From an uncultured Campylobacterales bacterium (GTDB taxonomy: Bacteria; Campylobacterota; Campylobacteria; Campylobacterales; Sulfurimonadaceae): a stretch of 44,877 bases of DNA. The stretch covers positions 1 through 44,877 of the forward strand of contig CAISHH010000034.1 in NCBI GenBank assembly GCA_903885085.1. The letters run 5' to 3'. Each line of letters begins with the position of its first letter. Position 1 is the stretch's first letter. Below, piece by piece: positions 1 to 6,384 of the stretch. The notes under the pieces are model-generated. The model made no database searches and was not told where the DNA came from. It was given only the letters and a program-made list of their open reading frames with translations. The position numbers were made by a program, and so were the translations under genes.

Positions 1-51
1 AACCAATTTTGCTTTGAACTCAGCACTGTATATTTTTCGTTTGATGCTCAT
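1..51 (-). CDS. IS3-family transposase OrfA, N-terminal fragment
   Basis: Seventeen codons are visible on the minus strand from the ATG at 51, beginning MSIKRKIYSAEFKAKLV, and the frame is still open at the window edge. This matches the start of IS3-family OrfA proteins, small helix-turn-helix proteins (basic-x-YSxEFKxK pattern) that act with OrfB, often as a frameshift fusion, to bind the element ends and carry out transposition. The leader contains only a weak purine stretch before the ATG. The call rests on a short peptide, but that peptide is characteristic and the neighbouring comEC truncation supports it. Confidence 0.65.
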   Translation of the reverse strand, partial: MSIKRKIYSAEFKAKLV

Positions 52-134
52 TTCTTAATCCCTATATATTCCGTATTTTATTCTAGCGTTTTGGAATTAA
101 AAAATAGATTTTACTGGTTTGATTTTAGGGGTTC
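1..134 (-). mobile_element. End of an IS3-family insertion sequence (partial)
   Basis: The left edge of the window is the terminal part of an insertion sequence that reads leftwards out of the window. On the minus strand the element seems to begin at 134 with TGAACCCCTAAAATCAAACC, starting with the TG dinucleotide usual for IS3-family ends. About 80 bases further in, an ATG opens an orfA-type transposase. The comEC reading frame stops inside this terminal sequence, so the junction lies at about 134/135. The other end and any target-site duplication lie outside the window. Family assignment rests on the orfA N-terminus and the TG end; the exact element is unknown. Confidence 0.7.
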
Positions 135-892
135 ATTATAATTTTCAGTCCTCTATCGTAAAGAAAATACCCAACAACGAGCATTCCAAAAGAGCGGATA
201 AGAGAAGGGGTAAAATCTAAAAACCAAACATAGGCAAATAAAAAAACTGCAACCACAAGAAACAAATCACGATTGGCATGTCTATATGGAAAATATCTTC
301 CCGCAATCGGTCGATAAATCCATCCAAAAAGAAAAAACAAAACACCGCTAAGCACTCCCAAATGAAAGCCGCTAATCGCCATCAAATGACTCACACCCAA
401 AGAGGAGAGTTTTTGACGAAGTTCGATGTTTTGCGGTGCGGCTGTATAGAGCGCTTTGTAGATCGTTACGGTATCTTTATCTTCATGTTGTGCGGCGATG
501 GAGGCATTGAGACGTGATTTAAAACTCTCGGATTCTAGCACATGAAAGTCTGTACTTTTGGCATAAAAACCTTTGAGATAGCCCAAAAAATCAAGCCGTG
601 AAAGACTAAACTCCGCGCTCACCTCTTTTTCCATCACATCGCCGATACCAAGCCCTTTTGCAGTGTAAATCACAGCCTCACCACAATCAAGTTTAAGCAT
701 AAAATATGAAGAACTAAAACGGCTCTTTTCATATTGGTTTAAAACCTTACATGTAAGCGTTACATTCTCTTGTGCAACAAACTTTTTATAGGAAAAATAT
801 TCATAGGAAAGGGAGAGCAAAAAGAGTAAAAAGAAACCAAGCAGAGCATAAAAAAAGTCACGTCCTCGAAAAAGTTCTGGACGTGCGATCAT
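125..892 (-). pseudogene. comEC: comEC, DNA-uptake channel protein, truncated by an IS insertion
   Basis: This is the N-terminal part (255 codons) of ComEC/ComE3, the inner-membrane channel that brings single-stranded DNA into the cytoplasm during natural transformation. Hydrophobic segments lie at about residues 14-30, 180-195 and 210-245. The start of the Competence domain is clear from SHLMAISGFHLG at about 168-179. Complete family members are much longer, with more membrane helices and often a C-terminal metallo-beta-lactamase-like domain. Only residues 1 to about 252 are native; the final MNP and stop come from the IS end. The ATG at 892 lies three bases after the dnaB stop, and the same dnaB-comE3 pairing is known in Helicobacter pylori. 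The rest of the gene, if retained, lies beyond the IS. Residues 46-49 (LTCK) are encoded by a palindromic repeat. Confidence 0.85.
746..757. repeat. CTTACATGTAAG palindrome in comEC
   Basis: Exact 12-base palindrome inside comEC, encoding LTCK in the gene's frame. On the minus strand it is preceded by G, giving GCTTACATGTAAG, the most frequent extended form in this window. Confidence 0.85.
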
Positions 893-5359: not shown

Positions 5360-5833
5360 TTACTTAGTCAGTTTGCTACAGTATGTTCCAGAAGTACAAT
5401 TAAAAGTCCCATCGAGAATGTTATAGTTAAATACATTTGGAGTTCCAGAAACGTAATAAGTATATTCATCAGTATTTGTTTTCATCCAACCACCATCAGC
5501 ATTCTTCGTTGTAATTCCATATGTTAGAAGTTTATTTGTGCTTATACCATTATTATCAAATATACTTGCGCCAACTCCTGGAGCTGCTGTTGCATTGCCA
5601 TCTAAATGGTTAATATAACTACTGTCACCCTTCATAAAACGCTTCTGTCTTTCAGTAGAGATCGCTGTACGGATCGACATAACATCTGAACGTCCACTTG
5701 CAATGACTGCTTGTTCAGAGACACCTGCAAATCTTGGAATAGCAATAGTAGCAAGAATACCAATAACAATAATAACAAAAATGAGCTCTATCATCGTAAA
5801 AGCATTTCGTGAAGTTTTATGTAACATAGGCAA
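5360..5833 (-). CDS. Type IV pilin-like / type II secretion pseudopilin
   Basis: A 157-residue prepilin-like protein. It has a short positively charged leader followed by the class III signal: cleavage by prepilin peptidase is expected after Ala11, before FTMIELIFVIIVIGILA. The conserved Glu at +5 and the hydrophobic helix (about 12-35) form the pilin stalk. The rest is a variable periplasmic domain ending with two cysteines near the C-terminus (FNCTSGTYC) that could form a disulfide loop. Such proteins assemble into type IV pili, type II secretion pseudopili or competence pili; the sequence alone does not say which. No assembly ATPase or prepilin peptidase lies in the window. It lies 70 bases downstream of a second pilin-like gene and shares the PxFxGVSEQA segment after the helix. 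Confidence 0.85.
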   Translation of the reverse strand: MPMLHKTSRNAFTMIELIFVIIVIGILATIAIPRFAGVSEQAVIASGRSDVMSIRTAISTERQKRFMKGDSSYINHLDGNATAAPGVGASIFDNNGISTNKLLTYGITTKNADGGWMKTNTDEYTYYVSGTPNVFNYNILDGTFNCTSGTYCSKLTK

Positions 5834-5903: not shown

Positions 5904-6384
5904 TTATTTTACTAAAATAGTACCATTTTGATCTTCTAAGAAGAAAAGTGGAGATGAAGTTGAGTTACCATCAGAACAACCTATGTAATACTGACTTGCA
6001 CCTATCGTTGTTGCTTTAGCAAAAGCACCTGTTCCGGACTTTAGAGTAGTATTATCTGCATCTGTTTTACCAACAGGTGCTACTGGATAAGTTAATGTAC
6101 AACTAGTAAGCGTTCCATTCGCATCCAACTCACTCGGCCCCGTAATTTGAGAATCTAACTTTGTTTGATAAGTCTTAATAGAACCATTTAAATCACCTGA
6201 AATAGACTCAGACCAAAGCGCAGGCGAAACAGTTCTGTTTAACGTACCAACATACGCTTTCAATTTACCAACGTGTGCTTGCTCAGAAACACCGAATGAA
6301 TTTCGGCAATGCAACCGCCGATAAAATACCTAAAATAACGATAACGAAGATCAATTCGATCATTGTAAAACCAGCTCTTTTCAT
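5904..6384 (-). pseudogene. Type IV pilin-like gene with a single-base frameshift
   Basis: From the ATG at 6384, preceded by AAGGAG, the minus strand encodes a prepilin start, MKRAGFTMIELIFVIVIL, then a stalk ending in ALPKFI. The frame next runs into RCF and a stop near 6283. The rest of the pilin (GVSEQAHVGK onward to VLVK-type C-terminus at 5904) is intact in another frame. The neighbouring pilin has PRFAGVSEQA where this one would have PKFIGVSEQA if one base near 6292-6296 were absent. The full span is 481 bases, one more than 160 codons, consistent with one inserted base. There is no homopolymer at the site, so phase-variable slippage is not obvious. It may be a true mutation or a sequencing error. 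Confidence 0.8.

Follow-up and report, generated by a model that had tools for sequence, protein, structure and literature searches.

In natural transformation, DNA crosses the inner membrane through the channel ComEC (PMC8579336). In Piscirickettsia salmonis, comEC is split by transposable elements in all genomes, and dprA and other transformation genes are kept (PMC12955456). Another example is found in pneumococcus, where a mefA-carrying cassette is inserted in comEC, a case discussed under an intragenomic-conflict model (PMC4774983). Breakage of comEC by transposons is thus already published, and the present case is a further instance. It adds Campylobacterota to the examples of mobile elements breaking comEC, in a group that nearly always keeps the gene.

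As in P. salmonis, comEC is cut here by a transposable element in a transposase-rich genome, and dprA is kept (intact, 259 aa). While several elements and all strains are involved in that fish pathogen, here a single IS3-family insertion is found in one uncultured Campylobacterota genome. The likeness to the pneumococcal mefA case is that a mobile element destroys the uptake-channel gene and should block transformation. The pneumococcal element, however, is a cargo-bearing genomic island, whereas the one described here is an ordinary IS present at least 29 times in the genome.

The best explanation is that comEC received, after codon 250, a transposed copy of an IS3-family element (about 1.35 kb, at least 29 copies). 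Translation of the hybrid frame stops after four IS codons, leaving ComEC without its C-terminal 168 residues, among them most of the membrane channel domain. A second event beyond the gap would have removed the end of the neighbouring yihY. This account as a whole (transposition after codon 250, loss of ComEC function, no transformation, and a second event at yihY) is considered very likely.

The truncated comEC frame and its junction

The window is the whole stretch analysed, contig C34, which is 44,877 bases long and comes from a Sulfurimonadaceae draft genome of 2.34 Mb. The genome looks metagenome-derived because it consists of 172 contigs with an apparent 1.5-kb cut-off: the shortest of 60 contigs checked is 1,528 bases, and anything shorter than about 1.5 kb appears to have been left out of the assembly. 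The closest relative found (G007) was used as the reference for comEC, yihY, and gene order, and the 17.8 kb of the window compared with it (dnaB, ispG, priA, and further genes) are colinear.

The 5' part of comEC lies at 141-892 on the minus strand, and its product shares 92% identity with residues 1-252 of ComEC from G007. It consists of 250 codons and two bases; the full gene in G007 has 418 codons. The minus-strand open frame that contains it, 892-125, encodes 255 aa (255 codons). Its match to the Pfam Competence domain (PF03772, E = 1.6e-17) covers profile positions 12-90 of 270, and in the intact G007 protein positions 12-256 are matched. The channel domain is present, but the complete channel is not (255 codons, 250 of them native, vs. 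418). The truncation of comEC in the window is real. A natively short ComEC was considered and ruled out: the gene is full-length in all seven same-genus genomes, with open frames of 419-427 codons.

The remainder of the hybrid frame (125-140, minus strand; read from the codon table) is supplied by the IS. It provides the third base of the split codon 251, followed by Ile-Met-Asn-Pro and a TAA stop. Positions 1-140, on the minus strand, are the left (orfA-side) end of the element, with the tip 5'-TATAATGAACCCCTAAAATC at 140 (IS tip, TATAATGAACCCC), and the element runs off the contig at position 1. As the initial annotation had proposed, comEC is interrupted by an IS: its frame runs into a sequence shared by 29 contig ends. 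Identity among the copies holds up to position 140 and breaks down from 141 on (26 flanks listed), which places the edge at 140/141. This base is also the boundary of homologous elements in G065, G052, G072, G018, and others, all of other genera. Agreement over as many as 140 bases at numerous independent sites is far beyond chance. An edge at TGAACCCC (134/135) is ruled out by the 26 different flanks, all of which start beyond 140.

The initial annotation had set the edge near 134, six bases short of the real one, and had counted about 252 native codons and three IS codons instead of 250 whole native codons, the split codon 251, and four IS codons with a stop. The count of 252 arose because the IS tip TATA by chance continues the native reading (Ile-Ile). 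Its placement of the orfA codons from position 51 on the minus strand holds. The first 17 codons of the transposase, the orfA part MSIKRKIYSAEFKAKLV (1-51, minus strand), match the N-terminus of the G065 transposase (MSTKRKVYSAEFKAKLV; 402 aa).

The IS3-family element and its target duplication

The sequence of positions 1-140 recurs whole or in part at 29 contig-end places, C34 included, with 98-100% identity, so that the copy number in this genome is a lower bound of at least 29. Left ends are found at the ends of contigs C4, C19, C20, C26, C33, C34, C36, C38, and C42, as well as C49, C50, C62, C66, and others. Right ends of the same element, found by blastn of the window start on C4, C33, C38, C77, C112, C145, C9, and C23, finish in ...GGGTTCATTATA. 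The left end carries a long, imperfect terminal inverted repeat (92-140, minus strand; about 49 bp), which by blastn is 82% identical to the right end within this genome.

The nearest complete relative of the element is in G065 (locus L125, 1501-2852). It is 1,352 bp long, matches positions 1-140 of the window at 87%, and contains a single 402-codon transposase with the Pfam domains HTH_Tnp_1, HTH_21, and rve. This transposase scores 321.8 bits against the NCBIfam IS3 transposase model NF033516 (cut-off 160). An IS3-type transposase is thus found in the relative, and the window copy shows 17 codons of it. Together with 3-bp target duplications at four other sites, within the 3-5 bp of the family, this score upholds the IS3-family identity given initially.

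Members of the IS3 family usually have 5'-TG...CA-3' tips, although this is not an absolute rule. In this element, both ends are TATAAT..., as they are in other genera. It shares with the family the HTH_Tnp_1, HTH_21, and DDE (rve) transposase, the GAACCC near the tip of the inverted repeat, and the 3-bp duplication. It differs in that its tips extend to TATAATGAACCC instead of starting with TG, and in that orfA and orfB form a single fused frame of 402 codons in G065, which has the nearest complete copy.

At four other insertions in this genome, a left and a right flank with three bases in common give a continuous open frame when one 3-mer is taken out. The rejoined frames encode a response-regulator receiver domain (CCG duplication), a heavy-metal-binding domain protein (ATA), and two sensor-kinase-like proteins (ATA and TTG). 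Three of the four have Pfam matches, and that of the TTG frame is weak, below Pfam's cut-off. The count of shared 3-mers among flank pairs (8 observed vs. 4.3 +/- 2.3 expected) is not convincing alone. It is the restored reading frames at the four sites that indicate a duplication of 3 bp. By analogy with these insertions, the duplication at comEC should be AAT, at 141-143 on the minus strand; at this site it is a prediction, the right end and the second copy being absent from the assembly. The initial annotation had expected it at 135-137, bases that lie within the IS.

Several regulators and a metal-binding protein gene are split by the same IS, and the assembly is fragmented by its copies. 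The element is recently amplified, in a burst of transposition in this genome. No match to the IS end was found in G007 or in plasmids, and none to the IS tip in viral contigs. A PF00665 profile search of the genome yielded five frames for transposases or integrases, on C159, C86, C160, and C164, none of which was matched to the IS in comEC. This is consistent with a 1.35-kb IS body that falls below the contig cut-off.

Since the IS is present in at least 29 copies, several of which split other genes, no targeting of competence is needed. comEC appears to be one gene among many hit by the IS burst, not a chosen target. The reverse order, with the burst following or made possible by the loss of comEC (29 or more copies here and no match in G007), seems improbable. 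Its rationale is that cells without DNA import cannot swap IS-bearing loci for clean copies. If it were true, this genome would offer a natural experiment on whether transformation rids cells of mobile elements.

Beyond the gap, and alternative explanations

The DNA downstream of comEC in G007 matches another contig of the same assembly, C29, from base 198 on, and the two are colinear along C29 with one small gap. This order suggests that C34 and C29 are neighbours. Extension to the left had been expected to lead through the IS to the 3' part of comEC. Instead, C29 (L055, G000:C29) opens with 197 bp of unrelated DNA, single-copy in the assembly, fused to a truncated yihY. A search for bases 1-197 in 120 genomes (this one and 119 relatives) gave nothing in the relatives but two short chance-like matches, and a search of plasmids gave nothing useful. 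yihY (BrkB family) is convergent with comEC. On C29 it is a 259-aa frame with a foreign tail (152-931), compared with 282 aa in G007. There is thus a second lesion beside comEC, at the end of yihY. Of the G007 sequence, an interval of about 554 bp (L023, 2253-2806), comprising the ends of both genes, has no counterpart in the assembly.

With the 3' part from G007 as query, no DNA or protein match to the 3' part of comEC was found in any contig. Because contigs shorter than about 1.5 kb were apparently dropped, its absence is weak evidence for a deletion; a short fragment between two repeats could have been lost below the cut-off. In a variant of the IS insertion account, a deletion or an island insertion between comEC and yihY took the 3' part, with the IS as one edge and another element as the other. 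This variant is plausible, if somewhat short of an even chance. It would account for the missing 554 bp of the G007 arrangement and for the single-copy 197 bp that, apart from the two short matches, the 119 relatives lack. The same picture, however, would result from a simple IS insertion and a separate insertion in yihY, with a middle piece below the size cut-off.

Two further explanations question the junction itself, and the length of the IS sequence on C34 bears on both. Five contigs, four with a left end and one with a right end, include exactly 140 bases of the IS before they break off. An overhang of this length would be expected at a repeat if the assembler used a de Bruijn graph with k = 141. 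In that case, there were k-mers spanning the junction, and the assembler retained no native path in competition with them. As C34 carries all 140 bases, we infer that the assembler followed the IS-bearing version at comEC. The IS insertion might be one allele in a mixed population in which many cells have an intact comEC, and a metagenome-like genome (172 contigs, apparent 1.5-kb cut-off) makes strain mixtures possible. Two alleles at similar depth, however, would branch the graph at 141, and a contig would start there; C34 instead bears the full overhang, like the other insertions, and the 3' part of comEC is in no contig. A mixture of this kind is therefore regarded as unlikely. That the IS end was wrongly joined to comEC is less likely still, and only a slight chance is given to it. 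A high-copy repeat at a contig end is the classic place for such a misjoin, but the comEC junction falls at the same IS base as in every other copy. Moreover, like junctions are real at the four sites whose flanks rejoin with a 3-bp duplication, and the length of the overhang is that expected from a graph assembler where a junction is genuine.

Natural transformation and other genes of the pathway

Truncation after residue 250 should abolish DNA transport by ComEC. A search of the 172 contigs for an intact comEC, suggested in the initial annotation, found no second comEC or other frame with a Competence domain. Since the assembly has just this one comEC, the population it represents is probably unable to bring DNA through the inner membrane by natural transformation. 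A minority intact allele may exist alongside the IS allele, as the view is that of the assembly alone, a 172-contig draft.

In the window, two small frames lie between priA and a flagellar rod gene on the minus strand (5360-5833 and 5904-6314). Both are apparently intact. The former adjoins priA and has a prepilin-type, GspG-like N-terminus. The pair may encode pseudopilins for transformation or for a type II system.

Across the order, a comEC match is found in 145 of 150 sampled genomes, a few of which also have a short or broken gene (G131 and G139 among them). In G131, a single-contig genome, comEC (C1:1001233-1002407) appears to be broken by many stops, and this genome appears to represent another natural loss of comEC.
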